Source: Lachnospiraceae bacterium
GTDB taxonomy: Bacteria > Bacillota > Clostridia > Lachnospirales > Lachnospiraceae
Direction of reading: 5' to 3'
Assembly: GCA_017617545.1 (NCBI GenBank)
Contig: JAFZVZ010000017.1
Coordinates: 62,001 to 126,000 of the forward strand
Length of the DNA: 64,000 bases
The notes under the pieces were generated by a model. The model did no database searches and was not told the DNA's origin. It saw nothing but the letters and a program-made list of their open reading frames with translations. The stretch's first letter is position 1. Every line of letters begins with the position of its first letter. The position numbers and the translations under genes were made by a program. Below, in pieces: positions 11,214-35,065 of this stretch.

Positions 11214-11648
11214 ATGGAAACGCTTAAGATACGATACATCAGCAACGAGATCGAGAAACTGCGCTACATTGACGGTGTCTCGGACTGGATCGATCTTCGC
11301 TGCGCGGAAAATGTGGTTTTGAAACAGGGAGAATCCCGGCTGATCCGCTTAGGCATCGCCGTCGAGCTGCCGGAGGGCTACGAGGCGCATATCGTGCCGA
11401 GAAGCTCGACATTCCGCAATTTCGGGATCATCCAGACAAACCATATGGGAGTCGTTGACCACAGCTACTGCGGAGACGAGGACGAGTGGAAATATCCCGT
11501 GCTGGCGATGCGCGACACGGAGCTCCATGTCAACGACCGCATCTGCCAGTTCCGCATCATGCGCAACCAGCCGAAGCTTGTGTTCGAAGAGGTGGAGCAC
11601 CTGGGCGGCGCTTCGCGAGGCGGCTTCGGATCGACCGGGGTAAAGTAA
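11214..11648 (+). CDS. dut: dUTP diphosphatase-like protein (trimeric dUTPase fold)
   Basis: A 144-residue protein with the motifs of trimeric dUTPases, which hydrolyse dUTP to dUMP and pyrophosphate to keep uracil out of DNA. VPRSSTFRNFGI matches motif 2, GVVDHSYCGDEDEW matches motif 3 (uridine binding), and the C-terminal RGGFGSTG matches the flexible arm that closes the active site. The order rules out dCTP deaminase. It starts 18 bases after the M18 peptidase stop with GGGAGA as ribosome binding site, so the genes are probably co-transcribed. The DEDEW insertion in motif 3 is slightly unusual. Confidence 0.85.
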   Translation: METLKIRYISNEIEKLRYIDGVSDWIDLRCAENVVLKQGESRLIRLGIAVELPEGYEAHIVPRSSTFRNFGIIQTNHMGVVDHSYCGDEDEWKYPVLAMRDTELHVNDRICQFRIMRNQPKLVFEEVEHLGGASRGGFGSTGVK

Positions 11649-11705
11649 ACAGTTTATAAAGCGTGCGACGAACAATAAAAAGCGCGCTATGGAGGACATA
11701 CAGAC

Positions 11706-13001: not shown

Positions 13002-13016
13002 GAAAGGATTTGACCT

Positions 13017-13967: not shown

Positions 13968-13996
13968 AATAACCTGTTCACGGATGAGGTAATGCG

Positions 13997-15085
13997 ATGA
14001 TCAACAATGTGAAGGTACTCGGGAGAACGTCAAAGGAGGCGCCGGACGTAGTGTTCTGGACCGGAAGCCGGTACGAGATGAACGTGAAGGCGTCTTACCT
14101 TACCGCTGTTATCGAAGCGGATTACGGAATGCAGGAACAGTGGATCGCCGTATTGATCAACGGCGCGCCCGTGTGCCGCATGCCCTTACAGAAGGGTCTC
14201 AATGAGGTGATCGTGTTCCGCAACCGGGATGCCGGCATTGTAAGAAATGTAAGGATCATCAAGGAAGTACAGCCAATGGGCGGGGATGGAGCGAACTATA
14301 TCCGCCTGACGGAGATTAAGACGGACGGCGAGCTTCTGCCTGTCGAGGAGCCAAAGCTCCGCATTGAGTTTGTCGGCGACTCCATCACCTCCGGCGAGGG
14401 AGGGATCGGCGCGCATGACGAGATGGACTGGGTGGCGCAGCTGTTCTCGGCATACGACAATTACGCATATAAGACCGCTGAGGCGCTTTCGGCGGATTAC
14501 CAGGTTGTATCGCAGAGCGGATGGGGCGTGTACTGCGGTTATAACAACGATATCCACATGAACGTGCCCGGGATCTACGACAAGGTCTGCGCGCTTGTCT
14601 CCGCGGACGGAGAAGGCGTGTACGGCTCGCAGAAAGCGTATGATCATTCGTCATTCAAGCCCGACGTTGTCGTGATCAACCTCGGGACCAACGATTCCGG
14701 GGCATGCAATTCCGAAGCCTACACGGATCCGGAGACGGGAAACGTGTATAAGCTTTCGAAAACTGCGGACGGCAAGCTTGATGAAGCGAGCGCGAAAGCA
14801 TTTGACGAGGCGGCGAGAGCGTTCCTTGCTAAGCTTCGCAAGGCTCATCCGGAGAGCTGCCTTCTGTGGGTTTACGGCATGCTCGGGATGGATATGGAAG
14901 AGGCGATCAAGGACGCGATCAAGGGATATCGTGAGGAGAGCGGTGACAGTAATGTCGATTACTGCCGCCTGCCGGACACGACACAGGACGCGTTCGGTTC
15001 GCGCTGTCATCCCGGTCATCCCGCGCATGAGCGCGCTGCCGAGGTGCTGGTAGGTAAGATCCGTGAGATCCGCGGTGAAATGTGA
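13997..15085 (+). CDS. SGNH/GDSL hydrolase with N-terminal beta domain (CE2-like esterase)
   Basis: A 362-residue SGNH esterase. About 120 residues that look like a beta-sandwich come first. They are followed by block I IEFVGDSITSGEG (nucleophile Ser, near residues 123-135), VVINLGTNDSG (block III, near 224) and RCHPGHPAHERAAE near the end (catalytic His). A beta domain before an SGNH domain is the layout of carbohydrate esterase family 2, which removes acetyl groups from xylan and other polysaccharides. No signal peptide is visible, so it would act inside the cell on imported oligosaccharides. Start at 13997 follows GATGAGGT. Substrate is inferred. Confidence 0.75.
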   Translation: MINNVKVLGRTSKEAPDVVFWTGSRYEMNVKASYLTAVIEADYGMQEQWIAVLINGAPVCRMPLQKGLNEVIVFRNRDAGIVRNVRIIKEVQPMGGDGANYIRLTEIKTDGELLPVEEPKLRIEFVGDSITSGEGGIGAHDEMDWVAQLFSAYDNYAYKTAEALSADYQVVSQSGWGVYCGYNNDIHMNVPGIYDKVCALVSADGEGVYGSQKAYDHSSFKPDVVVINLGTNDSGACNSEAYTDPETGNVYKLSKTADGKLDEASAKAFDEAARAFLAKLRKAHPESCLLWVYGMLGMDMEEAIKDAIKGYREESGDSNVDYCRLPDTTQDAFGSRCHPGHPAHERAAEVLVGKIREIRGEM

Positions 15086-15187
15086 AACTTCTGTGATCCC
15101 GCAACAGGGACTCGACAAAAGCGAATAATAACTGTAGAATGCTTTATAGTATATTTATGCAGTGCGTTTTACGATTTTTTTGTGTGG

Positions 15188-15193
15188 TATAAT
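15188..15193 (+). promoter_or_regulatory. Extended -10 promoter element before the ABC array
   Basis: TATAAT preceded by TGG (TGn extended -10) lies about 115 bases before the first ABC gene. No convincing -35 box is seen at the usual distance. The leader downstream contains a hairpin, GGGAATG (15255-15261) with CATTCCC (15269-15275), without a U tract. Confidence 0.5.
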
Positions 15194-15309: not shown

Positions 15310-17640
15310 ATGTCACTGCTCAAGCTGGATAACATAGGGAAAATCTATGTTTCCGAGGGGAACATTGCCGTAGGTATCAGAGGCGTTAATCTTTCGTTTG
15401 ATCAGGGTGAATTTGTCGCGATCACCGGCGAGTCCGGTTCCGGCAAATCCACTCTTTTGAATGTCTTAAGCGGCATGGATACCTACGAGGAGGGTGAGCT
15501 CTACATCGAGGGGCAGCCCACGTCTCACTATCTTCAGCCGGACTGGGAACAGTACCGGCAGAAGTATATCTCTTTTATCTTCCAGGACTATAATATCATT
15601 GACAGCTTCACGGTTCTTCAGAACGTGGAGCTTGCTTTGATGACCATTGAAGACCCCAAGAAGCGCCGTGAGCGCGCTGTTGAACTGATCAACCGGGTTG
15701 GTCTCTCCGGTCATATGAAGCATAAGGGAAGTCAGCTTTCCGGTGGGCAGAAACAGCGCACCGTTATTGCTCGTGCTCTCGCAAAGGACAGCCCGATCAT
15801 CCTTGCGGATGAGCCGACCGGAAACCTCGATTCGAAGACCGGGCAGGAGATCATTGAGCTTCTTAGGGAGCTTTCGGAGGATAAGCTTCTGATCGTTGTG
15901 ACGCATGATTTTGATCTTGTGGAAAATGTCGCAACACGCCATGTGCGCATCTTCGACGGCGCTGTCGAATCCGACCGTGTACTCCGAGGAACATCCGTGG
16001 ACAGTAATGCGGAAGCTGATCATACCGTTGAAACAGAAACAGACAGTGCGGAGACTTCATCGGAAACAGCTTCCGACAACTCAGTTGAAGTACAGAACGT
16101 ATCTATCCCTGCATTCAGCAACGGCGTGCGTCTCGGAAGGACGCTGTTTACCTCGAGACCGAAACTCAGTTTGTTCCTTTGCTTCCTTCTTTCGTTCGGC
16201 ATGATCTGCCTGTTCCTCGTTACCGCGTTGTGCAGCAGCTTTACTGATATGTTCCGCTCGTTCAATCTGTTCCAGAGAAAAGAGGGGCGGCTTGTCATCG
16301 CGAGACAGGACGGCAATCCGATCAGGGATGAGGAGGTTGCGGAGCTGGCGAAGCGCTTTAACGCATCTGACAGCCTTCACTACGATTATCTGTGCGATCT
16401 TTTCAATGAACAGTTTGTTACAAACACGTACAATGATGATTATGATTACAAGTTTAATGATCATATCGGTTATGCGTACGGGGAGGACTACGGAACGCCC
16501 ACATACGGGCGGTATCCTGAGGCTGAGAACGAGGTTTTACTGAGACTGCCGCTTTATTTCGAGCATGAGGATCTTCCGCTCGGAACGAATGAAACGGTTT
16601 ATCTGAACAGCGGATATGAGCTCAAGGTCGTTGGTACCTCATTTTACGTGGACACCAACGAACGGCCTACAATGCTTCTCACGAAAGAAGGATTTATCAA
16701 TCTGACGGCCGTGGTCGGGATGTATGTCAATGTTACGGATGTACTGATCGACGGAGTATCGCAGAGCGAATCCGAGATCCGGTTGCAGGCCTATGTTTGG
16801 CCTTATGTGGAGCCCGGGAAAATCTACTGTGTAAGCAACGGTTTCGCGGAGAAGGTACAGGACGCGGGATCCGTTGAGATCATGCTCTCGGCGAAAACAA
16901 TATATGCAGAGGAAGCAAATAGCTTCAATGGCAGCAATCCAATCATGAACCGCTCATTTGAGACCGAGAAGACATATGACAGCAGTTACCTGACGGATAA
17001 TACGCCGGAGCTTCCGAGGACGGTGAATCCGAGAAACGAGGGAAGGTACGTGTTCCTCGTGGGAACGGACATCGCGCGGGAACTGTTAAGCGAATGTCTC
17101 GAAGGCAACTATAACCAGGCAAGTCTGTTCTTCCCGGATGACAAAGCGGCGAAGCAGGCAGTCGGATCACTGCGCGATGAGGGATATACCGCGCTCACGA
17201 CCGATGTAACCTATGCTCCCGATATCAGTACGCTGTTCGAATTGATCATGACCGGCGTGGCCTTAGGGTTTGTCTGGCTCGCAACGATCCTTCTTGTAGT
17301 ATTCATGATCAATCTGTGCACCAACCGGTCTGTTGAGGCGTTCCGCAGCGACCTCGCGATCATGCGCTCCATGGGTATACCCGTTAAGGTGATCAAGGTC
17401 GGAATGTATGTGCGTATGGGATTATCTTTGATACCCGCGCTACTTTTGATCCCGGTTGTCGCATATTTAGTATATCACGTTAAATTGCTCGATATGGTTT
17501 TGAATTACTTGCGGCCGGTACATTATGTGATCCTTGTTCTCGGACTGATCATCCTGACATGGCGTATCACGCGAAAGCAGGTGAAGAACCTGTTCGCAAG
17601 CAGTGTCAAGGCATCTCTGAGAGGAGGTGATCAGGCATGA
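15310..17640 (+). CDS. Fused ABC ATPase-FtsX permease, unit 1 protein A
   Basis: A 776-residue MacB-like fusion. The ATPase comes first: Walker A GESGSGKST near residue 40, signature LSGGQKQR near 144, Walker [13 protein letters not shown] near 163. A linker follows, then one membrane segment (FLCFLLSFGMICLFLVTALC, near 285-308), a large outside domain of about 330 residues, and three C-terminal segments near 650, 700 and 737. This is the four-segment MacB/LolC topology, not the ten-segment BceB type. The start at 15310 follows GGGGGGAAGG; an upstream in-frame start at 15259 is rejected. It overlaps gene B by ATGA and probably forms a heterodimer with it. Substrate unknown; peptides, lipoproteins or antimicrobials are possible. 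Confidence 0.88.
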   Translation: MSLLKLDNIGKIYVSEGNIAVGIRGVNLSFDQGEFVAITGESGSGKSTLLNVLSGMDTYEEGELYIEGQPTSHYLQPDWEQYRQKYISFIFQDYNIIDSFTVLQNVELALMTIEDPKKRRERAVELINRVGLSGHMKHKGSQLSGGQKQRTVIARALAKDSPIILADEPTGNLDSKTGQEIIELLRELSEDKLLIVVTHDFDLVENVATRHVRIFDGAVESDRVLRGTSVDSNAEADHTVETETDSAETSSETASDNSVEVQNVSIPAFSNGVRLGRTLFTSRPKLSLFLCFLLSFGMICLFLVTALCSSFTDMFRSFNLFQRKEGRLVIARQDGNPIRDEEVAELAKRFNASDSLHYDYLCDLFNEQFVTNTYNDDYDYKFNDHIGYAYGEDYGTPTYGRYPEAENEVLLRLPLYFEHEDLPLGTNETVYLNSGYELKVVGTSFYVDTNERPTMLLTKEGFINLTAVVGMYVNVTDVLIDGVSQSESEIRLQAYVWPYVEPGKIYCVSNGFAEKVQDAGSVEIMLSAKTIYAEEANSFNGSNPIMNRSFETEKTYDSSYLTDNTPELPRTVNPRNEGRYVFLVGTDIARELLSECLEGNYNQASLFFPDDKAAKQAVGSLRDEGYTALTTDVTYAPDISTLFELIMTGVALGFVWLATILLVVFMINLCTNRSVEAFRSDLAIMRSMGIPVKVIKVGMYVRMGLSLIPALLLIPVVAYLVYHVKLLDMVLNYLRPVHYVILVLGLIILTWRITRKQVKNLFASSVKASLRGGDQA

Positions 17641-20318
17641 TCCGGATACAGAAACTCGACAAGTATTATAACCGTCAGAAGCAGAACGAGCTTCATGTGC
17701 TTGATGACCTTACCTATGAGTTTCCGGAGCGCGGGATGTGCGCGATCTTCGGACCGAGCGGCTGCGGTAAGACTACGCTTCTCAATGTCATCGGCGGCCT
17801 GGATGATCCTACCTCGGGAGCGGTACGCTACGACGAGACAGAGCTTTCCGAGGATGAGAACAGGATCCGAAACAGAGACATCGGGTTTATATTCCAAAAC
17901 TATAACCTGAACAAGGATGAGACGGTGTTCGATAACGTAGCGGATTCCCTTCGCCTGTGCGGCATCGAGGATGAGGCAGTGATCGAAGAGAGGGTCATGG
18001 CGGCGCTTCAGAATGTCGGAATGGGCAAGTTCCGCAAGCGTCTTCCCGACACGCTCTCCGGAGGTCAGCAGCAGAGAGTTGCCATCGCGAGAGCGATCGT
18101 CAAGAACCCGAAGGTTTTGCTTGCCGACGAGCCGACCGGAAATCTTGATGAGGCCAATACAATCCTTGTTATGGACATCCTTAAGAAGATGTCCGAGGAA
18201 CACCTCGTGATCCTTGTGACACACGAGACGAAGCTCGTGGATTTCTACTGTGACACGGTTGTGGACCTTTCCGACGGAAAGATCGTCGGAGTGCGTTCCA
18301 ACGAGAACACAAACGGCTATGTCGGTAGAAACCGAAACGACATCTACTTAGGGGAGCTTGAGCAGAGCACCTGCGGTGACAGCAACACGACTGTACGATA
18401 CTATGGCGAACCTCTTGAGTCACCGCTTCAGCTTACGATCGTGCATCACAACGGAAGAGTGTTCCTGCGTGTGGATGAAGGTAAGGTTACGGTTCTTGAG
18501 CCCGGCAGTGAAGTGAAGCTTAAGGAAGGCGTGTTCACGGATCGTAGTGCCGGTGATACGTCTGAGACCGGGATCGACATGAGCAAACTTCCTCCGGTCG
18601 AAGGCGAACGATACGGTCGTTTATTCCGCCTGAAGGACAGTATCAAACAGGGCTTCCGTGCCAATTTCAGGAACTCTGTGGGAAAGAAGAAGAGGAATGC
18701 GCTGATCGCATGTCTGTTCTTCTTCGGAGTAGCGCTTGTGTTCTTCACAGCATGGTTCGGACAGGATTTGCGAAGCGTATTTTCCATCCGGGAAGAGATC
18801 AACGAGCAGACATTTTTAGTCTGTGCATCGGACCAGGATATCGCTGAGAGGATCAAGTCGATGGCTGCGGATCCGTCCGCCGCGGTTGATTATTATGACA
18901 TTACGGTAATCTTCGACAACAATATCAACACTTACGGAATCGAGTTGTACTTCGACTATGCAACCTTTGAGACATTCGGATATTACAGCGACGGGTTCGA
19001 ATTCCCGCAGAGCGAAATGATCGGTACGCAGCAGTATCCGGTCACGATCGCCGGCGACGGAGAGCTTCTGTGCGGCAGCAGAGAACTGAAGAACGATGAC
19101 GTGCTCATCACTACACAGGTCGCTGACCGTATCCTTAAGACAACACCGTACGAGTACATTCGTGAGTACAGAGACCTGATCGGTCTGAAAATGTATGCTA
19201 TTATAGGAGGCGGGCAGTTTTTCCGTATTGCGGGTGTGATCCGTTCGGATGAGAACAGCATTTTCAGTTCAGTGGATAAGACGAAAAATGATCTGGATGT
19301 GTATCGGGGCATTGTATGCGACACCGATGATTACTTCAATCTCGCGCCCGGGGAATGCGCGATGATCTGTCTTTACGAATCGAGACGGAAACCGAGCTTC
19401 CCGGATTACGAGGAAGGTGAGACCATGGTATTCAACGGTCTGCAGCTTACCCTTACGAAGAAGATCGATCTTACGTTACTTGAAACCGCGTCCGCATATA
19501 AAAAGACAGACGAGGAACAGCCGGATCCGGAAGAAATCGAGAGACTTCAGAACAAGAAGAACGAGTTTGAAGAGCATTTTACGATTAAAAACTTCTTCTC
19601 CACAAACGCAGGCAGGGTGTTTGTCCTGAATAAGAGCGACTATGAAGCAACGGAGAACATGATCGGAACGACAAGCAAATGGATGCTCGGCGTTGAAGGA
19701 AGCTCGAAGGATGAAACCGCGATGTATGTAAGCAGTTACGATGATGCGGTTGCATATTACAGAATTCATTCAAAGGATCCGAAAGCTACGACGGAATACC
19801 TGCGCGCGCATTTTTCCGACGTCACGAACCGCAGGAGGTTTGAGCCCAGTGAGATATCATCCGGTGTCATTACGCCTGACGACAGGTTCAATATGGTATT
19901 TGAGAACAGCAAGCGCAACGTGCTCGGGCAGCTGGCTCTTGTGGCCGTGTTCCTCGTGTTCCTCGGGATCTGCATGTATCTTGTGATGCGCGCTTCCGTC
20001 ATGAATCGCACGAGGGAGATCGGGATCTATCGTGCGATCGGAGCGAAGAAGAGCAATATCGTGTTTCGGTTTGCTGTTGAGACCGTTGTTGTGCTCATGC
20101 TGAGCGCAGTTATCGGATTTTTGATCATCAGCATAGCGATCACGTATATCACAAGCCGATCCGCATTCAGCGGCGTGGATTCGTTCTACTATCCGCTGTG
20201 GATGGCTGTCGCGCTGTTCGTGTTCTTGATGACGGTCGGCACTGTATGCGGCATCGTGCCGGTAATCTTATTGTTGCGTAAGACGCCAAGTGAGATATTG
20301 GCGAAATACGATATATAG
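17637..20318 (+). CDS. Fused ABC ATPase-FtsX permease, unit 1 protein B
   Basis: An 893-residue partner of protein A. Walker [17 protein letters not shown] near residue 39, signature LSGGQQQR near 139, Walker [15 protein letters not shown]. After a longer linker with a small beta-rich segment (residues about 245-300) comes the first membrane segment (LIACLFFFGVALVFFTAWFG, near 353). An outside domain of about 390 residues follows, then three membrane segments near 765, 812 and 852, ending in [12 protein letters not shown]. Translation starts inside the stop of gene A behind GAGGAGGTGATC, so expression is coupled one to one. ATPase motifs look intact in both partners. Confidence 0.88.
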   Translation: MIRIQKLDKYYNRQKQNELHVLDDLTYEFPERGMCAIFGPSGCGKTTLLNVIGGLDDPTSGAVRYDETELSEDENRIRNRDIGFIFQNYNLNKDETVFDNVADSLRLCGIEDEAVIEERVMAALQNVGMGKFRKRLPDTLSGGQQQRVAIARAIVKNPKVLLADEPTGNLDEANTILVMDILKKMSEEHLVILVTHETKLVDFYCDTVVDLSDGKIVGVRSNENTNGYVGRNRNDIYLGELEQSTCGDSNTTVRYYGEPLESPLQLTIVHHNGRVFLRVDEGKVTVLEPGSEVKLKEGVFTDRSAGDTSETGIDMSKLPPVEGERYGRLFRLKDSIKQGFRANFRNSVGKKKRNALIACLFFFGVALVFFTAWFGQDLRSVFSIREEINEQTFLVCASDQDIAERIKSMAADPSAAVDYYDITVIFDNNINTYGIELYFDYATFETFGYYSDGFEFPQSEMIGTQQYPVTIAGDGELLCGSRELKNDDVLITTQVADRILKTTPYEYIREYRDLIGLKMYAIIGGGQFFRIAGVIRSDENSIFSSVDKTKNDLDVYRGIVCDTDDYFNLAPGECAMICLYESRRKPSFPDYEEGETMVFNGLQLTLTKKIDLTLLETASAYKKTDEEQPDPEEIERLQNKKNEFEEHFTIKNFFSTNAGRVFVLNKSDYEATENMIGTTSKWMLGVEGSSKDETAMYVSSYDDAVAYYRIHSKDPKATTEYLRAHFSDVTNRRRFEPSEISSGVITPDDRFNMVFENSKRNVLGQLALVAVFLVFLGICMYLVMRASVMNRTREIGIYRAIGAKKSNIVFRFAVETVVVLMLSAVIGFLIISIAITYITSRSAFSGVDSFYYPLWMAVALFVFLMTVGTVCGIVPVILLLRKTPSEILAKYDI

Positions 20319-20376
20319 AAGACGAAACGTCTTCGAAACGGTTCCAAGGGGGTGGGGACGCCACTGCGGTGTCCCC
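20318..20376 (+). other. Two hairpins between units 1 and 2, no U tract
   Basis: GAAGACG (20318-20324) pairs with CGTCTTC (20328-20334), and GGGGACGCC (20354-20362) pairs with GGTGTCCCC (20368-20376) with one G-U. Neither is followed by a T run, so they look more like processing or stability elements, or weak attenuators, than intrinsic terminators. Units 1 and 2 may therefore share a transcript. Confidence 0.5.
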
Positions 20377-20404
20377 GTGAGAAATTACACAGGGGGAAGA
20401 AATC

Positions 20405-22741
20405 ATGGCATTTCTTAGACTTGCGAACATCGGAAAGATCTATGTTTCCGATGGCAATGTTGCGGTAGGTATCCGCGGTGTCAACCTGTCGTTTGAGAAA
20501 GGAGAGTTTGTCGCGATCACCGGTTCGTCCGGCTCCGGCAAATCCACGCTCCTCAATGTCTTAAGCGGCATGGATACCTACGAGGAGGGCGAACTCTTCA
20601 TCGAGGAGCAGCCCACGTCACACTATCTGCAGCCGGACTGGGAGGAATACAGGGAGAAGTACATCTCCTTTATCTTCCAGGACTACAACATCATCGACAG
20701 CTTCACGGTCCTTCAGAACGTGGAGCTTGCGCTGATGACGATACCGGATCCGGCGAAGCGTCGCAAACGCGCGATCGAACTCATCGAGCGCGTCGGTCTT
20801 TCCAAACATCTGAAGCATAAGGGAAGCCAGCTTTCCGGCGGTCAGAAGCAGAGAACCGTTATCGCGCGAGCACTCGCGAAGGACAGCCCGATCATCCTTG
20901 CCGACGAGCCGACCGGTAACCTCGATTCGGAGACCTCAAAGGAGATCATCGAGCTTTTGCGCGAGATTTCCCACGACAAGCTTCTGATCATGGTCACACA
21001 CAGCTTCGACCAGGTGGAAAACGTAGCTACGCGGCATATCCGCGTATTTGACGGTGCGATCGAATCGGACCGTGTTCTTCGCGTGGAAAATGAAGCTGAA
21101 ACCGCTGAAGTGAATGGGAACACAGTGGAAGAGGGCGAAAAAGCTTCGAAGGAAGAAGAGACAAAGGAGATCAACCGTAAGCTTGCGGATGTGTCCAACG
21201 GCGTGCTGCTTGGGCGTTCGATGTTCTTTGCAAAGCCGAAGCTCAGCATTTTCCTGTGCTTTCTGATGATCGTCGGCATCTTCGGTATCTTTGCGTCAAC
21301 GGCTGTCTGCGGTGATTTCGCAGAGATATTCCATACGTACCGTCTGTTCCGAAAGGAGGAAGGGCGTCTGATCATCTCGCATAAAGACGGAACTCCCATG
21401 AAAGTTCAGGAACTTGAGGAGCTTGCGAAGGAATACAATGCGAAGGACATGCTGTATTATGATCTCCTTCTGGATATTCCGATCGATACGGACTTCCGCC
21501 TGCCGTATGATCAGCTTGATTATCACAATGAAGATTACGGCTCGTACTTCTGTGATTACGACAAGGATTACGGGACACCGGATATCGGACGATACCCGGA
21601 GGATACGACGGAAATCCTGCTTCGTCTTCCGGTCTTTTACGAGCCGTTGTTCGGCGAAGATAAGATCAAGATCGACAGGTTTGAATTTTACGGAGACTTC
21701 TTTAAGATCGTAGGCATCAAGTACTACGCGGATACTTCCGAAAAGCCGACGATGCTGTTCACGAGGGAAGGCTTTAAGTACGCAACGAGCCTTTTCATAT
21801 CCTATGATTCGTTGTATTTCGGCGATTTTTACGGCGGCGAGGCGCGAGAAAAACTGAAGTACTGGGTAGGCGGAAAATACGAATCGCCGAAGTATTATTT
21901 TGTCGTTAAACCCAACCGGGATATCGATCCGGATGCCGTTATTTTCGACAATCTCGAGTTTCAAAAGGATCTTCAGGAATCCGGACGCATGGAGCTTACC
22001 GTGACACTTGTTACGGAGTACCAGTATAAACGGAAAATTGAGTATTCTCTGGGGAATCCGAGAAAGATGTTCTATGCGTTGAAAGAGTACAAGCTTGAGG
22101 ATATTACGTTTACTGACAAGATACTTACGGTGCATGAATCGTCTAAGATCCCGCTTCTGATCGGCACGAATGTGCTTCAGGAGTTTGTCGACAAAGCCAT
22201 GGACGGAATGTATTCGCAGGGAACGCTGATATTTGATTCAAACCGTCAGGCGAGCAAGGTGGCGAAGAAGCTTGAGGAAACAAACTATTCTGCGGTTACG
22301 ACAGATGCTTCGTATAAGCCGGGATATCAGGCGATACTTCAGGTCGTGGCGAGGGGACTTGTGCTGTTGATCGCATGGGTCATCATGGTGTTCTTTATCG
22401 CGTTCTTCATCAATCTCTGCAGCAACCGTACCATATCCGCTTTCCGCGAGGATATGACGATCATGCGATCCATGGGAATTCCGGTTCGAGTGATTCGGAT
22501 CGGGATCTATGTTCGTATGTTCTTAGCGCAGCTTCCTGCGTATGTGCTTCTTCCGATCGTCGCGTATAATGTGTATCATACGCCCAAGTGGAACGCACAG
22601 CTGTTATATCTGCAGCCGATCCATTATGTTTTGATCTACCTCGGCATGATCATTCTGATGACGCGTGTCACGAGAAAGCAGATACGCAACCTGTTCGGCG
22701 CAAGCGTGAAGACATCTTTACGGGGGGGTGAGGATGTATGA
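20405..22741 (+). CDS. Fused ABC ATPase-FtsX permease, unit 2 protein A
   Basis: A 778-residue paralogue of the unit 1 A protein, with the same N-terminal ATPase ([29 protein letters not shown]), nearly identical through residue 230. It then has a linker rich in Glu and Lys, a first membrane segment near 285, an outside domain of about 340 residues that has diverged strongly, and three C-terminal membrane segments ending in SLRGGEDV. The start follows AGGGGGAAG. It overlaps the B gene by ATGA. The outside domain keeps landmarks shared by all three A proteins, such as DYGTPDIGRYPE and KPTML, so it is a homologous fold and not a replacement. Confidence 0.87.
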   Translation: MAFLRLANIGKIYVSDGNVAVGIRGVNLSFEKGEFVAITGSSGSGKSTLLNVLSGMDTYEEGELFIEEQPTSHYLQPDWEEYREKYISFIFQDYNIIDSFTVLQNVELALMTIPDPAKRRKRAIELIERVGLSKHLKHKGSQLSGGQKQRTVIARALAKDSPIILADEPTGNLDSETSKEIIELLREISHDKLLIMVTHSFDQVENVATRHIRVFDGAIESDRVLRVENEAETAEVNGNTVEEGEKASKEEETKEINRKLADVSNGVLLGRSMFFAKPKLSIFLCFLMIVGIFGIFASTAVCGDFAEIFHTYRLFRKEEGRLIISHKDGTPMKVQELEELAKEYNAKDMLYYDLLLDIPIDTDFRLPYDQLDYHNEDYGSYFCDYDKDYGTPDIGRYPEDTTEILLRLPVFYEPLFGEDKIKIDRFEFYGDFFKIVGIKYYADTSEKPTMLFTREGFKYATSLFISYDSLYFGDFYGGEAREKLKYWVGGKYESPKYYFVVKPNRDIDPDAVIFDNLEFQKDLQESGRMELTVTLVTEYQYKRKIEYSLGNPRKMFYALKEYKLEDITFTDKILTVHESSKIPLLIGTNVLQEFVDKAMDGMYSQGTLIFDSNRQASKVAKKLEETNYSAVTTDASYKPGYQAILQVVARGLVLLIAWVIMVFFIAFFINLCSNRTISAFREDMTIMRSMGIPVRVIRIGIYVRMFLAQLPAYVLLPIVAYNVYHTPKWNAQLLYLQPIHYVLIYLGMIILMTRVTRKQIRNLFGASVKTSLRGGEDV

Positions 22742-25700
22742 TTAAGATAAATGCATTACATAAGTTTTATAACCGCGGGAAGCAGAACGAGATCCATGTG
22801 ATCAACGACGTTTCGTTAGAGCTTCCCGACACCGGCATGTGTGCCGTGTTCGGACCTTCCGGATGCGGTAAGACGACACTTCTCAATGTGATCGGCGGAA
22901 TGGATTCGACGCAGTCCGGCGAGATCCTGTTGAACGAGAGTCAGATTTCAGTGAAGAGCAAGGATTTTGATGTCGTACGCAATCGAGATATCGGTGTCAT
23001 ATTCCAAAATTACAATCTGAACCGCAGGGAGAGCGTGTTTGACAATGTCGCGGATTCGCTCAGACTGTGCGGAATGACCGATGCTGAGACGATCGAAGAA
23101 CGAGTGAACGCGGCGCTTGCCAACGTAGGCATGGAGAAGTTCGCGAAGCGTCTTCCCGATACACTTTCCGGCGGTCAGCAGCAGCGAGTAGCGATCGCGC
23201 GCGCGATCGTGAAGAATCCTAAGGTGATCCTTGCAGATGAGCCGACAGGTAACCTCGATGAGGCGAACACGATCCTTGTAATGGACATTTTACGTGCCAT
23301 GGCCAATGAACGTCTTGTCATTCTGGTCACGCATGAAGCAAACCTTGTGGATTTCTATTGCGATACCGTCATCGAGCTGAAGGACGGTTCCGTCGTCAAT
23401 GTTCGAACGAACGAGAAGACAAGCGGATACGTTGCGCGGAATAAGAATGACATCTACCTCGGCGAACTCGACGAGCACGTGCAGAATGACGGCAACGCGG
23501 AAGTCACATTTTTCGGCGATAAGCCTGAGACGCCGGTGCAGATCACGGTCGTGAACCACAACGGAAGATACTTCCTGAAGATCAACACACCGAAAGTCAC
23601 CGTGCTCGATGAGAACAGCGAGGTGAAACTGAAGGAGGGCGTCTTCGAGGATCAGGAGGCAAGACGTTCGAAGGAAGAACGCGTCGACATGTCGAAGCTG
23701 CCATCATTTGAAGGGAAAGAGTACGGAAAATTGTTCCATTTCTGGTCGTCCCTGAAAAACGGGTACCGTGAAAACTTTAAGAATATGATGCAAAGGAAGA
23801 GCAAGAAACGTCTTGCGTGGTGTCTTGCTCTGTTCGGAGCCGCAATGGTGTTTATCACAGCCATGTTCGGCGTAGGCATCGGAAACCTGCTCAACAAAAA
23901 AGACAAGTACAATGGGGACGTGTTGTATGTCTCGGCAATGACGGATGATGTCGCAGACAAGATCAAGGCGCTTGCTGAGGAACCGGGCTCTGCGATCGAT
24001 TACTACGGTCCGGGCCGCGTTTTAAACGGTTACGCGACGGATCCGGTCGCGGTGTTCCAGCTCGCGAGGTTCGAGACCAGCGGTTATCTCGATGACGGTT
24101 TTGATAAGCAGCCGTTCGTCGAACTCACGATGACGATCCTTCCGGATAGATTGATGGGGAAGGCGAAGCCGGTGGCGGGCAGGATAACCGATCTCGCCGA
24201 CAATGAGGTTGTAATATCCCAAAAGATCGCGAATCAGCTGCTGAAGAATTCACCGTATCGCTTTATTGACAATTACAATAAGATCGTCGGAACTGTTGTA
24301 ACTCTGACGGAGAGCGGGTTTACAAAACCGATGATCGTCGTTGGCATTGCCGATACCAATGAAGTCGCAGGTTACGTCAACGAGTTGGCTCTTGCGGAGG
24401 CGAACGTCGTATTGCGCGATTATCTCAGAAACGTAACCTATGACATGGAAGGATATTTCGGATTGAAGAAGGGTGAGTGCTTTGTCATCAATTCCATGGT
24501 TAATCCGATGCAACGGTTTTTAGACTATTGGGTTGAGATGGATGCTTACGATGATGAGGAAGGTGTCCTGAGAGAAACCGAATCGTTAGTGTACATTTAC
24601 GATACACAGGGAAGACATATCGGCTACGGATTCCGTGACAGGATCGAATACTATAGCTGGTATGAGCTCGAGATGAACGGGCAAGATCAGGACGACAGCG
24701 GGGATGATGATACGGATGTCACGTATGACTGGTCCAACGACCTTGATACCGGTAAGGATAATCCTCTGGACAACTATTATGACGATCCCGATGATTCGGA
24801 TAAGTACTATGGTCAGCCGTTTGACTCCAAAAACTATGAATTCACGTACAAGATGCTTCCCGAAAGAAAAGTGCTTTATAACGGTATTGAGCTGACCGTG
24901 AAAGATAGAACGGACCTGTATTTCCAGGAGTATTGGCTTGAGCCTGATGAGACACCGAGCCTGGAGAAGATCAATCAACTGATCGATGAGAACGATAAGG
25001 TTGTCGAACAGTTATACGAGTATAATGATAATCTGCCGAAGGTTTCCATGTCGTATTACGATTCGATGGACGGTCTTCATTATACGGAAGGTGAACCGTT
25101 CCTTTCTGTGTATTCGTATGCAATTGTTCTTTCGAAGGAAGATTATCTTGAAGGCAGCAGTCTGGTAGGAAGAACATCCATGATTCTCGCGACGGAATGG
25201 TATGATGACGTTGAAACCATTCCCGGGTATTTTCAGGAAGTCCATTATGAACGGTACTCCGATATGTTGTCTATGTTCCACTTATACTACATGATGCCGA
25301 AACTGTACTACGTGATCCACACCACGGACCCGAAGGCTACGTCTGCACGGATCCGTGAAACGTTCAGCGGCCTTGAGGCACCGTCAGGATACATAGACAT
25401 TTACGATGACGGCTCCTACAACAAGTCACTTCACTCATATTACGATGACGAGGACCGTTTTTCCGAGCATATCGTGGATACCGGCAAGAAATCAACTCGT
25501 CTTTTGACGATCGGCGCGGTATTGCTTTTGTTCATGTGCCTTTGTATGTATTTCATCATGAAATCGACGATCATGAGCAGGATCCGCGAGATCGGTATCT
25601 ATCGAGCGATCGGAGCAACCAAGAAAAATGTGAGGTTCCATTTTACGATCGAGACAGCTGTCGTGGTCACCTGCAGCGTGATCATGGGATTTGTCGTTGC

Positions 25701-25887
25701 CAGCGCGATCGTATGGTATATTTTGAACGTGAGCAGTCTTGCGGAAAATCTGTTCTACTATCCGTCATGGCTCGCTCTGATCCTTCTTGTCGTGCTCTAT
25801 GTGGTGAGTATCCTGTGCGGCATGCTGCCGTTGCTGCGGTTGCTTCGCAAGACACCGAGCGAGATCCTGGCTAAGTATGATATTTAA
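22738..25887 (+). CDS. Fused ABC ATPase-FtsX permease, unit 2 protein B (long variant)
   Basis: At 1,049 residues this is the largest of the six. The ATPase ([31 protein letters not shown]) and the C-terminal membrane block with AKYDI match the other B proteins. The first membrane segment is near 360. The outside domain is about 150 residues longer than in unit 1 because of an acidic, tyrosine-rich insertion around residues 640-700, with many Asp, Asn and Tyr and the look of a flexible or calcium-binding loop. The start sits in the stop of gene A. It is followed by a hairpin at 25942-25978. Substrate unknown. Confidence 0.87.
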
Positions 25888-25941
25888 CAGGCTCTGAAAT
25901 AGTAACGGCATTGCTTGATCAATTGATATTATGAACAGGAA

Positions 25942-25978
25942 AATGAGTACAGCGGAGACAAATGCCGCTGTACTCATT
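25942..25978 (+). terminator. Hairpin terminator candidate after unit 2
   Basis: AATGAGTACAGCGG (25942-25955) pairs perfectly with CCGCTGTACTCATT (25965-25978) around a nine-base loop. The following GTATTATG is only weakly T-rich, so read-through into unit 3 is possible. Confidence 0.6.
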
Positions 25979-25998
25979 GTATTATGAGGGAATCTGAG

Positions 25999-26004
25999 TA
26001 TAAT
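25999..26004 (+). promoter_or_regulatory. -10 element for unit 3
   Basis: A perfect TATAAT 36 bases before the unit 3 start codon, directly after the hairpin. The only -35 candidate is a poor TTGTAT at 25977-25982 with a 16-base spacer. Unit 3 may be separately transcribed. Confidence 0.45.
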
Positions 26005-26039
26005 TAAATATACTACTGTGAGGGGAGGAAAGAACCAGA

Positions 26040-28388
26040 ATGTCTTTCTTACGTTTGTCTAACATCGGAAAGATCTATGTTTCCGAGGGTAACGTCACCG
26101 TGGGTATCCGCGGTGTCAATCTGTCGTTCGAACGAGGCGAATTCGTTGCGATCACCGGCGCTTCGGGTTCGGGCAAATCCACGTTGTTGAACGTCTTAAG
26201 CGGCATGGATACGTACGAGGAGGGTGAGCTCTATATCGAGGAGCAGCCGACCTCGCATTATCTGCAGCCGGAATGGGAAGAGTATCGTGAAAAATACATC
26301 TCTTTCATTTTCCAGAACTACAATATTCTCGAGAGCTTCACGGTCCTTCAGAACGTGGAGCTTGCTCTGATGACCATCACCGATCCGATCGAGCGCCGGA
26401 AGCGCGCGATCGAGCTGATCGAGAGGGTAGGCTTGAAGAAGCATATGCGCCAGAAGGGCAGTCAGCTCTCCGGAGGTCAGAAACAGAGAACAGTTATCGC
26501 GCGAGCTCTGGCGAAGGACAGCCCGATCATCCTTGCTGATGAGCCGACCGGCAACCTTGACGCGCAGACGTCGCGCGAGATCATCGCGCTTCTTCGCGAG
26601 GTATCCAAGGATAAGCTTTTGATCATGGTCACGCACAGCTACGACCAGGTGAGCGAATTCGCGACGAGACATGTGCGTATCTTCGACGGCGCTGTTGAAG
26701 CGGACCAGACGATCACTGAGCCGGAGGTGAAGGAATATCCGAAGGTGGAGAAGGACGGAAAAGTTTCCACGATCTCCAACGGAATGCTTCTCGGACGTTC
26801 GATCTTCTTCGCGAAGCCGAAGCTGAGTCTGTTTCTGTGCCTGTTATTGCTGATCGGTACCTTCGGTGTGTTCCTGATCACGATGTTCTGCGGGGATGCT
26901 TCTTTGTTGTTTGAGCAAAACCATATGTTCCGACCGATGAAGGGACGACTTGTCATTATACAGAAGGACGGGAACGTGATCACGGACGAGGAGCTGAATA
27001 ACCTTGCGTCAAAGTACAACGCCGAGAGAGCAGTCCACTACGATTATGTTTTCGACGTGCGGCTCGGTGATCTGACGGAAAATGCGGAAACCTCGTGGTA
27101 CGAGTATGAGATGGACAAGTTTGAAAACGGCAATTTCTACGTGACCTGCGGAGAGGATTTCGGCAAGCCCGATGTCGGACGCTATCCGGAGAAACTCAAT
27201 GAGGTTCTTCTTCGTGTTCCGATCTTCTACCAGCAGTGGTACGGAGTTGATTCCATTCTGCTTGATACGGTCAAAATCGGCAACATAAACTACACGGTTA
27301 CCGGTGTCGTATATATCGCCGATAATACTGCGGAACGGATTGCTTTGCTGACCGAAGAGGGGTATCGCGCACTGTCTGTTGTATTCGGTGCGTATAGCCA
27401 TGGCGGGATCAGACTTTCCTCCGTCACAAGCAACGGGGAAGAGACGGATGTAAAGCCATACTCTGTCGCGATCGATCCGGGCATGGATCCCGACAAGATC
27501 TATTACAGTAATCCTGATTTGCTGGAACTGTTGAACTCCGGCGCTGATGTCAAAGCAACTATCTACATGGGATACGGCGGCGCCTACGTGAACTACAAGA
27601 ACGTCGCGCCTGCCTACGAGGAAAGCGGCGAGTACGAGGAATTACTTGAGGAGCTCCTGTACGGCATGAATACCCCGGATGATGAAGAGGAAGATGTGGA
27701 TGCATACACATTAATTCTGGGAAAGGATGATTTCCTTACGGAGCTTCCTGCAACCGCGCCTATGGCAGCGTATGACGACGGCAAAGAAAGAGTGGACGTC
27801 TGTTATATCGGTCTGCATGTTGCGGAACGGTTGTGCGAGCAGTATTACAGAGACAATTATAAGCAGGCAAGTCTGTTCTTTAAAAACGACAGAAAAGCTG
27901 CAAGCGTTGCCAGGGACCTGAAGAAGGACGGCTACATTGCAACAACTTCTGACATGACATACAAGTCCGAGATGATGGAAATCCTCGGCCGCGTGTTCGG
28001 CGGATTCCTGTATGCGATCATCTGGATCCTCGGAATCTGCTTTGTCGCGATGTTCATCAATATGTGCGCCAACAGAACTGTAGGCGCGTTCAGCGAGGAT
28101 ATCGCGATCATGCGTTCCATGGGTATCCCGGTCAAGGTGATCCGTGTCGGTATCTATGTGCGTATGATGTTCTCCCTGTTGCCTTCCCTGATCCTGCTGC
28201 CGATCGCAGCATGGCTCATTTACCACTATCCGAAATGGAACGGACAGCTGCGGTATCTGCAGCCGTGGCAGTATGTTGTCATCATCATCGGTATGTTCAT
28301 TCTGACGTTCCGTGTGACGAGAAAGCAGATCAAGAATCTCTTCGGAACAAGTGTCAAGAAATCGTTGCGGGGAGGTGAGGAAGAATGA
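26040..28388 (+). CDS. Fused ABC ATPase-FtsX permease, unit 3 protein A
   Basis: A 782-residue A-type protein. The ATPase motifs ([29 protein letters not shown]) are intact. The linker is shorter than in the other two A proteins. The first membrane segment (LFLCLLLLIGTFGVFLITMF) is near 262, a diverged outside domain of about 380 residues contains an acidic stretch (DDEEEDVDAY near 545-555), and three C-terminal membrane segments end in SLRGGEEE. The start at 26040 follows GAGGGGAGGAAAG at slightly long spacing. It overlaps gene B by ATGA, with GGGGAGGTGAGG as the B ribosome binding site. Confidence 0.87.
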   Translation: MSFLRLSNIGKIYVSEGNVTVGIRGVNLSFERGEFVAITGASGSGKSTLLNVLSGMDTYEEGELYIEEQPTSHYLQPEWEEYREKYISFIFQNYNILESFTVLQNVELALMTITDPIERRKRAIELIERVGLKKHMRQKGSQLSGGQKQRTVIARALAKDSPIILADEPTGNLDAQTSREIIALLREVSKDKLLIMVTHSYDQVSEFATRHVRIFDGAVEADQTITEPEVKEYPKVEKDGKVSTISNGMLLGRSIFFAKPKLSLFLCLLLLIGTFGVFLITMFCGDASLLFEQNHMFRPMKGRLVIIQKDGNVITDEELNNLASKYNAERAVHYDYVFDVRLGDLTENAETSWYEYEMDKFENGNFYVTCGEDFGKPDVGRYPEKLNEVLLRVPIFYQQWYGVDSILLDTVKIGNINYTVTGVVYIADNTAERIALLTEEGYRALSVVFGAYSHGGIRLSSVTSNGEETDVKPYSVAIDPGMDPDKIYYSNPDLLELLNSGADVKATIYMGYGGAYVNYKNVAPAYEESGEYEELLEELLYGMNTPDDEEEDVDAYTLILGKDDFLTELPATAPMAAYDDGKERVDVCYIGLHVAERLCEQYYRDNYKQASLFFKNDRKAASVARDLKKDGYIATTSDMTYKSEMMEILGRVFGGFLYAIIWILGICFVAMFINMCANRTVGAFSEDIAIMRSMGIPVKVIRVGIYVRMMFSLLPSLILLPIAAWLIYHYPKWNGQLRYLQPWQYVVIIIGMFILTFRVTRKQIKNLFGTSVKKSLRGGEEE

Positions 28389-31198
28389 TCGAACTTATCG
28401 GACTTCAGAAATATTACAATAAAGGTAGACAGAACGAGATCCATGTGATCAACGATGTCTCGTTACATGTGCCTGAGAGCGGGATGTGCGCAATCTTCGG
28501 ACCGAGCGGATGCGGCAAGACAACGCTCCTCAATGTCATCGGCGGTCTGGATGATTACGAGAGCGGTATACTCACGATCGACGGCCTTTCGATGGAAAAG
28601 CAGACGGATCTGCTACGCAACAAGTACATCGGTTTCATTTTCCAAAATTATAACCTGAACAATGAGGAGACCGTGTTTGAAAATGTCTCCGACTCACTTC
28701 TTCTGTGCGGTATGCGCGATGAGGCGGAGATCGAGCGTCGCGTTATGGCGGCTCTTGCCAATGTCGGAATGGACAAGTTCAGCAAGAGATTTCCGGATAC
28801 GCTCTCCGGAGGACAGCAGCAGAGAGTTGCGATCGCCCGCGCGATTGTCAAGAATCCGAGGATCATCCTTGCGGATGAGCCTACCGGCAACCTTGATGAG
28901 GCCAACACGATCCTTGTGATGGACATCCTAAAGGAGATGGCGAAGGATCGTCTCGTCCTGCTTGTCACACACGAGGAAAAGCTTGTCGATTACTATTGCG
29001 ACACCGTGATCGAGTTGTCCGACGGCAAGATCGTAGGGACGAAGGTCAACGAATCCGCAAACGGGTATGCCGTGCGGGATAAGAACGACATTTTCCTGGG
29101 AGAGTACGAGAAGGACAGCATAGGCAACGAGGACATTGACGTTTCCTATTACGGCGAGAAGCCTCAGGAGCCGCTGAAGCTCACGGTCATCAACCATAAC
29201 GGGCGGCTTCTGCTTCGGATCGATACGCCCAAGGTATCGGTCATTGACGAGTTCAGTGAGCTGAAGATCCACGACGGTGTATACGAGGTGGAAGAGCAGC
29301 AGAAACGCCAGCAGCAGGTGTTTGACATGTCAGAACTGCCGCCGTTTGAGGGCAAGGAATACGGCAAACTGTTCGACTTTAAGACTTCGGTCAAGCGCGG
29401 TTACAATTTCAACTTCAAATCGTTGATGAAGAAGAAAGGAAAGAAGAGGCTTCGCACGACGCTTGCCCTGTTCGCGATCGTATTTGTCTTCATGAGCGCC
29501 ATATTCGGCACCGGTATCCGTCAGCTGCTGAAGATCGACACGATGTACGATCACAATACATTTTACGTATACGCTTCCGGTGACGGTGTCGCGGACCGTG
29601 TCGCGAAAGCGGTTGAGGATACGTCATCGGGAATTGATTTTGTCACGGTTCGACGCCAAGCGCTCTACACATCGCCGGAGGAAGAGAATATCGTGTTTGA
29701 GGCGAGCGGTTTTGAAAGCTACGGATACTATGAGTCCGGAGTTTTCAACGATAAGGAGACCAACGTCTTTGTTACCGCAATAGTTCTTCCGATCACGCTC
29801 GCAGGAGATGCGAAGGCGCTTGTCGGTTCCACTGAATGTATCAATGACGGGCGAGTGGTGATCACAAAGGCGGTTGCCGACATTCTTTTGGAAGGGCTTC
29901 CGTTTGATTATATCGAGACGTACGAAGATCTGCTCGGAACGGAGTGCTACGCAACGATGTCGGATTCGTCTGATACGCTCTCTACGAAAGAAGCGATGGC
30001 GAGAATCGGATGTGTGCTCGATTCCGATGCCAATGCCGTATATATCGATCCCTTGCTTCATGCGGTACACAGCCTGAGCCTGGACGGCATCACAGGTGTT
30101 GTCTGTGCCGGAGATGATCATTATAATCTCGGCAAGGGTGAGATCGTCTTCGTTAAGACGTATACCAAGGGCATGGCTGACTGGCAGGAAGCGACCGACG
30201 CCGTCAAGGTGGGGGACACCTTGCGCGTGCACGGTATTGACTTCCGCGTAAAGGAGATCATCGATGCCACAAAGCCTGCGGATGAAAATGGGTATGGAAA
30301 CCTCGAGTACATGATCAAAAATGGCAGGAATCCTGATCTTACCGAGGAAGAAAAAGAGGGCTTTATTGCGTATATGAGCAAAAAGTCCGAGGTTGCAAAG
30401 GTTCGAGAGGATATCGTATCCCATTGCGTTTATTCACGTTCCGCACAGGCGTTTTGGAACGATTCCTTTATCATTCTCAATCAGGAAGACTATGTTGAAT
30501 GTGCCAACCGCGCGGGTTCCACCGCTGCAGCTTTCCTGAGTCAAGACTACGGGAGACCGTATCTGCAGTTTACGGAGCCGTACGCGCCTCTGAACCTTGT
30601 AGGCAACCCTGAGATGAATTATGCCGAGTATTATGTACTTCATGCCACGGATGTCGATGCTGCCGAGAAGTACATAAAGGCAAACTTCGGTGATATCGAG
30701 AATCCGCCGAAATCAAACAGATATAGCGAAGAAGAAGGAGACGGATATGAGCCTTCGGCAATCTATACGCCGAAAGATATCCGCAGCCTGTATATTCAGG
30801 AGTTTCGCAGGGAGATCGTTCCGTTTACGATCACTCTTCTGGTGATCGTAGGATTCATGAGCCTGTGCATGTATTTCATCATGAAGTCCATGATCATGAA
30901 CCGTACGAAGGAAATCGGTATCTACCGCGCGATCGGCGTGACAAAGAAAAATATACTGTTCCGATTTGCTGTGGAGGCAGGTGTCGTCGTAACATTCAGC
31001 CTGATCATCGGATACATATTGGGAAGCGCCACAAGCTTCTTTGTTCAGGCCAATACGACGCTGTTCTATTACCCGGTATGGTATGCGTTGATCATCCTTG
31101 TGTTCCTGTATGCACTCGGCATCTTCTGCGGTGTCATCCCGGTACTGATGATCCTGAGAAAGACACCGAGCGCGATACTCGCGAAGTACGATATCTGA
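28385..31198 (+). CDS. Fused ABC ATPase-FtsX permease, unit 3 protein B
   Basis: A 937-residue B-type protein. The ATPase has GPSGCGKTT near residue 39, LSGGQQQR near 137 and [14 protein letters not shown] near 157. The first membrane segment ([20 protein letters not shown]) is near 360. The outside domain of about 420 residues differs from those of units 1 and 2. Three membrane segments near the end (for example [20 protein letters not shown]) lead to [12 protein letters not shown]. It pairs with unit 3 A. A strong bidirectional terminator follows, closing the array. Confidence 0.87.
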
Positions 31199-31221: not shown

Positions 31222-31272
31222 CAAAAAGAAGGCATCATGTCCGTCTCTGTCGGGCATGATGCCTTCTTTTTG
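31222..31272. terminator. Bidirectional terminator between the ABC array and icd
   Basis: A perfect 18-base inverted repeat: CAAAAAGAAGGCATCATG (31222-31239) against CATGATGCCTTCTTTTTG (31255-31272). It ends in TTTTT on both strands, serving the plus-strand ABC transcript and the minus-strand icd transcript. Confidence 0.9.
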
Positions 31273-31307: not shown

Positions 31308-32525
31308 TTACGCCTCAAGAGCCTTGGCAAGACGCTCCTTGATCGCTGCGATGAACTCGGCGGAGTTCACGGACGTCGAGGTGTAACCCTCGCTCACAAG
31401 ACCGGAGAGGTCCTTGGTCATGATGCCGTCGTTGAGAGTGTCGAGAACAGCCTTTTCAAGGCAGTCCGCGTAGCGGACAAGGTCTGCGAGACCGTCCTTC
31501 TCACCTCGCTTGCGGAACGCGCCGGACCATGCGAAGATCGTTGCGACAGGGTTCGTCGAGGTCTCCTCGCCCTTGAGGTAGCGGTAGTAGTGGCGAGTTA
31601 CGGTTCCGTGTGCCGCCTCGTACTCGAAGTTGCCGTCGGGGCTGACGAGAACGCTCGTCATCATGGCAAGGGAACCGAACGCGGTGCTGACCATATCGCT
31701 CATCACATCGCCGTCGTAGTTCTTGCAAGCCCAGATGAAACCGCCCTTACTGCGGATCACGCGAGCGACAGCGTCATCGATCAGAGTGTAGAAGTAGGTG
31801 ATGCCTGCGGCCTCAAACTTCTCCTTGTACTCAGCATCGTAGATCTCCTGGAAGATATCCTTGAAACGGTGATCGTACTTTTTGCTGATCGTGTCCTTGG
31901 TGGAGAACCACAGATCCTGCTTGACGGAGAGCGCGTACTCAAAGCAGCTGCGCGCAAACGACTCGATCGAGGTGTCCTTGTTGTACATTCCCTGCAGAAC
32001 GCCGGGGCATTCGAAATCGTAGATCGTCTCGCGCATTTCGGTTCCGTCCTCACCGGTGAAGACAAGCTCAGCCTTGCCCTTGCCGGGTACGCGGAACTCG
32101 GTGTTCTTGTATACGTCGCCGTAAGCGTGACGCGCGATCGTGATCGGCTTCTCCCAGGAACGTACGTTGGGCTTGATCGAATCGATCATGATCGGAGCGC
32201 GGAATACGGTTCCGTCGAGGATGGCACGGATCGTGCCGTTCGGGCTCTTCCACATCTGGGAGAGGTTGTACTCCTCAACACGCTGTGCGTTCGGTGTGAT
32301 CGTTGCGCACTTGACGGCAACGCCGTATTTCTTGGCAGCGTAGCTTGCGTCAAGCGTGATCTGATCCTTCGTCTCCTCGCGCTTTACAAGGCCGAGATCG
32401 TAGTACTCGGACTTCAGATCAACGAAGGGCAGGATCAGCTCGTCCTTGATCATTTTCCAAAGAATTCTGGTCATTTCGTCGCCGTCCATCTCGACGAGCG
32501 GCGTGGTCATCTGAATCTTGTTCAT
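31308..32525 (-). CDS. icd: NADP-dependent isocitrate dehydrogenase
   Basis: A 405-residue homodimeric (eukaryote-like) isocitrate dehydrogenase that makes 2-oxoglutarate, CO2 and NADPH from isocitrate. The N terminus [19 protein letters not shown], the substrate segment [19 protein letters not shown] and the later [12 protein letters not shown] are diagnostic. The start is at 32525, preceded by CACAGGAGGAATTCC; an upstream in-frame codon at 32627 would run into the hydratase gene. It lies 76 bases downstream of the aconitase-family gene on the same strand, so the two form the oxidative citrate branch used for glutamate synthesis. No citrate synthase is present in the window. Confidence 0.96.
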
Positions 32526-32601
32526 GGAATTCCTCCTGTGTTTGTTGGGCAGTGACTTTGTTATCAACATTGCGACATCGGCATTCATTCTTCGGAAAAT
32601 G

Positions 32602-34860: not shown

Positions 34861-34924
34861 AGAAACTCTCCTTTGGGATATCTTTGTCAATGCGCTTTGT
34901 CTGACATGTGCGCATACGGAAATT

Positions 34925-34953: not shown

Positions 34954-35065
34954 CCATTTTCCGCTTCGGAGATACGGTTGCCGGTATGTGGCAATTCGTG
35001 AGGGAATACGGAAAATAAAGCACTGTATGCATAATGCATTTTTGTTGCAATACACGTTTTTCTTC

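Follow-up and report, generated by a model that had tools for sequence, protein, structure and literature searches.

Three tandem pairs of fused ATPase-permease genes in a Lachnospiraceae bacterium, candidates for heterodimeric type VII ABC machines

RESULTS

Six ATPase-permease genes are arranged as three A-B pairs

The window analyzed here, a stretch of 64,000 nucleotides, is part of the 2.73-Mb assembly of a Lachnospiraceae bacterium (G000). At positions 15310-31198, it contains six genes on the + strand in the order A1-B1-A2-B2-A3-B3. A1 (15310-17640) encodes a 776-aa protein in which an ABC ATPase is joined to a permease of the 4-helix type; the ORF is open from 15259, and the start that fits the family is at 15310. 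B1 (17637-20318; 893 aa) encodes an ABC ATPase followed by a linker domain and an FtsX-type permease. The second pair consists of A2 (20405-22741; 778 aa) and B2 (22738-25887; 1049 aa, with the longest outer domain among the three B proteins), and the third of A3 (26040-28388; 782 aa) and B3 (28385-31198; 937 aa). As described in the original prediction, the six fusions form three A-B pairs, and 3/3 A/B junctions are 4-base ATGA overlaps. The pairs are spaced by 86 bases (B1-A2) and 152 bases (B2-A3). G000 contains no further full A or B gene beyond this set. Because the same three-pair order is found on one contig in a second genome of the genus (G005), the array is not an obvious assembly artefact.

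Upstream of A1, we read by eye an extended -10-like element (TGGTATAAT; 15185-15193, + strand); a promoter scan of the region gave 26 sites versus 17.1 expected and carries no evidential weight. A 14-pair hairpin followed by a weak T tract lies between B2 and A3 (25942-25978, + strand; -26.6 kcal/mol for the 81-nt stretch folded, z -5.6). This hairpin is a possible attenuator or terminator and, accordingly, the third pair may be partly uncoupled. Behind B3, a terminator-like hairpin with a 20-pair stem and a T-rich tail (31224-31270, + strand; fold z -12.0) separates B3 from a convergent isocitrate dehydrogenase gene.

A and B are distinct families with intact ATP sites

All six proteins have a complete N-terminal ABC ATPase followed by a permease with one large outer domain. 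As judged from hydropathy alone, each has one membrane segment, the large outer domain, and a group of further membrane segments at the C terminus (the C-terminal block), the last segment of A3 falling below the threshold used. Walker A, LSGGQ, Walker B with its Glu, and the H-loop His are present in 6/6 proteins, in agreement with the intact ATP sites originally proposed, and these motifs are intact family-wide (A, 74/74; B, 64/64). A degenerate ATP site as a sign of a heterodimer was ruled out, as none is present. The C-terminal sequences noted previously, SLRGG in A and AKYDI in B, are also there, with A carrying two or three residues more; in the family, [ST]L-x-GG is found in 49/74 A and YDI in 61/64 B proteins.

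All-against-all alignment of the six proteins bore out conserved ATPase parts and two fused families. The A proteins of the window are 81-86% identical in the ATPase part and 38-40% in the remainder; split by domain, they are 82-86% identical in the ATPase, 30-33% in the outer domain, and 54-62% in the C-terminal block. The B proteins are 71-73% identical in the ATPase part and 37-40% in the remainder (outer domain, 29-31%; C-terminal block, 50-57%). Between A and B, the ATPase parts are 37-42% identical, and the permeases give no full-length alignment. Judged by these alignments, A and B are two distinct families. Only B has a cytoplasmic linker domain behind the ATPase (18309-18632, 23410-23760, and 29057-29390), which comprises ~90 residues and is conserved among 16 aligned sequences. 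ORFs matching the linker also match the B permease in 175/175 cases, a count that is partly circular because the loci were chosen via A or B. Searched against the PDB, the linker domain has no convincing relative (best E 0.19). Matches to a defence library were confined to the ATPase part, the best being to mad3 (E 5e-33 and 6e-36).

An FtsX-type permease is recognizable by sequence in B and not in A

The original assignment of both proteins to MacB-type permeases is borne out by sequence for B but not for A. Pfam FtsX was matched above its cut-off by 3/3 B and 0/3 A proteins. The profile of the B permease matches MacB, 5xu1, and YtrF chains in the PDB (E 4e-9 to 6e-6), and on these profile matches, B is an FtsX-type (type VII) permease. 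The MacB periplasmic core domain (PF12704) has no above-cut-off match in the six genes. For A, eight permease pieces matched no family above its cut-off, and its profile hit no meaningful chain in the PDB. Because profile comparison gave no match between A and MacB, LolC, LolE, or YbbP, and because the C-terminal membrane blocks of A and B did not score above the best of 30 column-shuffled controls, we only infer an FtsX-type fold for A. Several matches point indirectly in this direction: the outer-domain profiles of A and B share a 41-column match (E 3.6e-5, versus 0.027 for reversed A against B), the A profile matches one Pfam-FtsX protein of G000 (E 3.3e-4), and there are sub-threshold matches of A3 to MacB_PCD (E 0.029) and of three other A proteins to FtsX (E 1.3 to 7.1).

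Fast outer-domain change is shared with an unrelated gene pair

Fused ABC-FtsX proteins are also encoded by another tandem pair in G000, C1/C2 (contig C28, L175:2127-4979 and 4969-8106), which is unrelated to A-B; the ATPases of C1 and C2 are 75% identical to each other. The two genes are adjacent in 10/10 genus genomes fetched for the pair, and C1/C2 may be a second example of a fused-heterodimer layout. In selected ortholog pairs from different species, with the partial first A of G005 left out, C1/C2 is 83-98% identical in the ATPase, 32-69% in the outer domain, and 62-88% in the C-terminal block. The corresponding values are 88-98%, 40-73%, and 65-96% for A, and 77-95%, 34-61%, and 57-91% for B. 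The original prediction emphasized diversification of the versions. Because C1/C2 in the same genomes combines a conserved ATPase with a fast outer domain in the same way, we rejected the idea that this pattern is special to A-B, and that claim is weakened.

A-B pairing recurs in relatives

A pattern scan across 84,980 species, each represented by a single genome, gave 82 places, from which 77 loci were retrieved (18 from the genus of G000 and 59 from outside it). The hosts are mainly ruminant and other gut Clostridia assemblies, together with one Bacilli assembly and Pumilibacter muris (L147), a deposited strain of a named species. B was called directly downstream of 80/85 A ORFs in these loci. 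A 4-base overlap is present in 77 of the 80 called pairs (71 ATGA, 6 GTGA), and the remaining three have the two genes within 30 bases; the separation of A and B in relatives that would speak against a paired unit was, accordingly, not seen. Among the five A ORFs without a called B, one is at a contig end, two have 301 and 217 bases left (L100 and L114), and in one, an antisense ORF masks a full-length B (L124). In the fifth (L166), 1007 bases are left behind A and hold an ATPase-bearing ORF, possibly a broken B. Based on this gene order, A-B pairing is well supported.

A is present in 19/22 genomes of the genus and in 0/19 genomes outside the genus in the same sample. In an even sample of the order, full-length A is found in 1/392 genomes, which is G000 itself; four others have short matches (E 1e-4 to 4e-4), few candidates having been scored per genome. 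The 59 loci outside the genus have one pair each, counted within a stretch of at most 10 kb to each side.

Partners are inherited together within the genus

Searching for copy number, as originally suggested, we found one to three pairs in those genomes of the genus that have A, some of these numbers being lower bounds because of contig breaks. Three pairs are present in G000, G005, and G020 (in G020 over two contigs); two in G002, G003, G007, G010, G014, and G019; one in G001, G004, G008, G009, G011, G012, G013, G016, G018, and G021; and none in G006, G015, and G017. In G002, two overlapping ORFs take the place of the first A (L079:13884-15368 and 15316-16236), indicating a broken gene or an assembly error. 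G011 has an A1 remnant before A3-B3 (L086:11052-11453), likely from a deletion of pairs. An extra B lacking an A of its own is present in G009 and G020; it groups with type p2 (see below) and precedes A2 in both genomes (L085:4570-7560; L082:3-1193 and L081:8078-9790). In G020, one contig has the N-terminal part of this B and another the C-terminal part. A search for remains of an A gene in the gaps beside the extra B was negative in both genomes. The fixed A-then-B order that had been proposed describes 80/85 A ORFs, while the extra B means that 1:1 pairing has exceptions.

In trees of the permease parts, A and B fall into the same three types, p1, p2, and p3, with support of at least 0.995; trees of the ATPase parts agree, with weak support for A p1 (0.25) and B p2 (0.59). 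The split first A of G002 was omitted and short fragments were dropped (sequences kept in the ATPase/permease trees: A, 30/30; B, 32 and 30 of 34). The partial first A of G005 had been labelled as a member of the single-pair group, which disturbs the roots; the types were, accordingly, read from the groupings. Because the same three types recur across species, the triplication is older than those species and the pair is the unit that was copied. Across genomes, permease distances in A and B correlate at 0.82 for true partners versus 0.26 (sd 0.14) for partners swapped within genomes, as calculated for 27/30 A (G009 p2, G012, and G020 p3 were dropped because the partner B is <500 aa). In the swap test, which involved 20 of the 27 A, 3/5000 swaps reached the observed value, a number close to that of the swaps restoring the true partners. 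The nearest A type and the nearest B type agree in 121/142 comparisons and disagree in 21/142. As read from these trees and distances, the pair types predate the sampled species, and the partners are inherited together.

One stretch is an outlier in the comparison of G003 and G010. The two are 97-99% identical over a region that covers most of pair 2 and runs as far as the 3' end of the isocitrate dehydrogenase gene (L076 about 5100-10570 versus L077 and L078), whereas pair 1 is 71-94% (300-base bins) and the control pair C1/C2 70-91% identical. Replacement of pair 1 was ruled out, since the control pair is equally divergent and the outlier is the pair 2 stretch. Based on this one case, a recent exchange of a pair is likely.

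These data bear on how A and B are assembled. One alternative is that A and B form two separate homodimers and have no more in common than their expression. According to the accessible text of PMC5985334 and PMC10094684, MacB is a fused homodimer; in addition, the complete ATP-site motifs of each half would suit homodimers too, and the extra B in G009 and G020 has no A. Against this, coupled frames in 77/80 called pairs together with coherent co-inheritance exceed what co-expression needs, and we consider separate homodimers improbable. A second alternative is mixing between tandem pairs, with the A of one binding the B of another; three pairs could then give up to nine machines. The ATPase parts of the paralogues are 71-86% identical, and the extra B before A2 in G009 and G020 would fit such mixing; on the other hand, partners co-inherit and swapping destroys the correlation, and the C-terminal membrane blocks are just 50-62% identical between paralogues. 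Free exchange of this kind seems quite unlikely. In a combined version, A-B would be a fused heterodimeric type VII transporter and the tandem copies in the genus would be its exchangeable halves, the unpaired extra B widening the choice; we regard this as rather doubtful. If halves were exchangeable, few genes would yield many surface-acting machines.

Neighboring genes do not point to a partner

In the window, the pairs are flanked upstream by genes for an M18 peptidase, a dUTPase-like protein, two CobW GTPases (one with a DUF1980_C domain), and an SGNH hydrolase (9765-15085), and downstream by genes for isocitrate dehydrogenase and aconitase (31308-35055). This arrangement around A-B recurs in the genus. 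A CobW protein in L093 has a His/Asp-rich stretch that hints at metal handling. Much of the locus is present without A-B in G006 and G017, which have other genes between SGNH and isocitrate dehydrogenase; the upstream part is present without A-B in G015; and in G012, SGNH adjoins isocitrate dehydrogenase while A-B is on other contigs. In the 59 loci outside the genus, none of these neighbor genes was called except two CobW-like genes in L159. CobW, SGNH, and isocitrate dehydrogenase were, therefore, rejected as partners. Since this locus also exists without A-B, the pair has the look of a passenger in it. The neighbors outside the genus are mostly housekeeping genes, and among the 25 families listed for 130 neighbor ORFs, none occurs more than five times. 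The lack of any other recurring partner among these ORFs suggests that the pair is self-sufficient.

The SGNH hydrolase gene (13997-15085) deserves separate consideration since it lies directly upstream of A1 and since, according to the part of PMC12646458 available, E. coli YbbAP works with TesA. A-B could, by analogy with YbbAP-TesA, form a complex with this hydrolase that handles lipids or acyl chains. We consider this highly improbable: the SGNH protein of the window has no evident signal peptide, the gene is present in 22/22 genomes of the genus (orthologue-level match in 21), including the A-less G006, G015, and G017, whose SGNH loci hold no A-B, and none of the 59 loci from outside the genus has a called SGNH gene.

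Between SGNH and A, six single-pair relatives (G001, G004, G008, G016, G018, and G021) have a gene for a Pro/Thr-rich membrane-anchored or lipoprotein-like protein of ~180-220 aa (L087:4005-4571, L088:3610-4143, L089:3095-3706, L091:9722-10327, L093:3868-4434, and L090 near 3474-4139). Two of these proteins were scanned and had no Pfam match. The gene was not found in G013, and G012 could not be judged. It is missing from the multi-pair genomes that have SGNH and A on one contig, as the gap between the two is <250 bases there. The original observation that no lipoprotein gene is adjacent consequently applies to the window, where the gaps are too short, and does not extend to these six relatives.

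Resistance or immunity to peptides, with A-B working like BceAB or YknYZ, would be compatible with the type VII fold of B, the large variable outer domains, and the gut Bacillota hosts. Against this, no two-component or adaptor gene is present among the seven window neighbors scanned, and none recurs among the 25 families listed for the 130 neighbor ORFs outside the genus, which are dominated by housekeeping functions. The same two sets contain no MacA-like adaptor. We consider a role in peptide resistance unlikely.

DISCUSSION

Here, we describe three tandem pairs of genes for fused ATPase-permease proteins. Given the adjacency of A and B, their overlapping frames, their co-inheritance, and their canonical ATP sites, the simplest reading is that A and B together form one machine. 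We suggest that each A-B pair probably represents a single heterodimeric ABC machine of type VII (MacB/FtsX-like), in which two unlike half-transporters each have their own ATPase; the physical A-B heterodimer is what we infer from the gene data. According to this model, translational coupling would ensure that A and B are made together, and the two proteins would dimerize to give a complex with two ATPases and two unlike outer domains. ATP binding would close the two ATPases, and the membrane helices would in turn move the two outer domains, as in mechanotransmission by MacB. These movements would act on a ligand located either at the cell surface or in the outer leaflet of the membrane. Our best guess is that the task is the extraction or clearance of membrane-active or lipid-linked molecules.

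The three pairs would be paralogues that arose by tandem duplication in this genus. Their near-identical motor and diverged outer domains suggest three parallel machines, probably with different envelope-side ligands. ABC machines of type VII are able to work at the cell surface through movements of their outer domains instead of transporting cargo across the membrane. The recurrence of the gene pair in other gut bacteria suggests that a familiar one-part machine also has a two-part form. If A-B forms a fused heterodimer, its halves could be mutated separately, unlike those of the MacB homodimer.

A 2018 review describes, in the sections available, mechanotransmission by MacB and the type VII layouts (PMC5985334), which in its section 17 comprise fused homodimers, unfused homo- and heterodimers, and double permeases. 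A survey of Bacillus describes symmetric or Bce-type complexes in its accessible part. A fused heterodimer is named neither among these layouts of PMC5985334 nor in that part of the Bacillus survey, and a fused heterodimeric A-B would add a layout missing from the list in section 17. A literature search of titles and abstract openings, in which subscription papers are mostly uncovered, returned nothing on paired fused MacB-like transporters.

Among known systems, MacB resembles A-B in having an N-terminal ATPase fused to the permease and, as judged for A-B by hydropathy, one helix, an outer domain, and a C-terminal helix block; MacB chains are also among the PDB matches of the B permease profile. 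However, MacB is a homodimer that works with the MacA adaptor, whereas A-B pairs two unlike fused halves, has no adaptor gene among the neighbors scanned, and leaves MacB_PCD unmatched above the cut-off. LolCDE, as presented in the accessible sections of PMC5985334 and PMC10094684, brings two unlike type VII permeases into one complex, as proposed for A-B; it relies on the separate ATPase LolD, whereas each A-B permease has its own ATPase. BceAB is, as proposed for A-B, a type VII system, and it shares with A-B a large variable outer domain and its occurrence in Bacillota, but it consists of one 10-helix permease and a separate ATPase in the parts of PMC5985334 and PMC11466899 available, and this layout was not found in A-B, where two fused halves each combine an ATPase with few membrane segments. 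YbbAP-TesA is of type VII, the class proposed for A-B, and in the window A-B has an SGNH hydrolase gene next door. It differs in that YbbAP has two permease units in one chain and a separate ATPase, and in that the window-type SGNH gene also occurs without A-B. Transporters of the BmrCD type (type IV) combine two different fused half-transporters in one machine, with one impaired ATP site and a membrane fold unlike that of type VII. Such heterodimers are named in the accessible text of PMC10094684 and PMC11466899. A-B shares with them the use of two different fused half-transporters and differs in that both halves are canonical at the ATP site.
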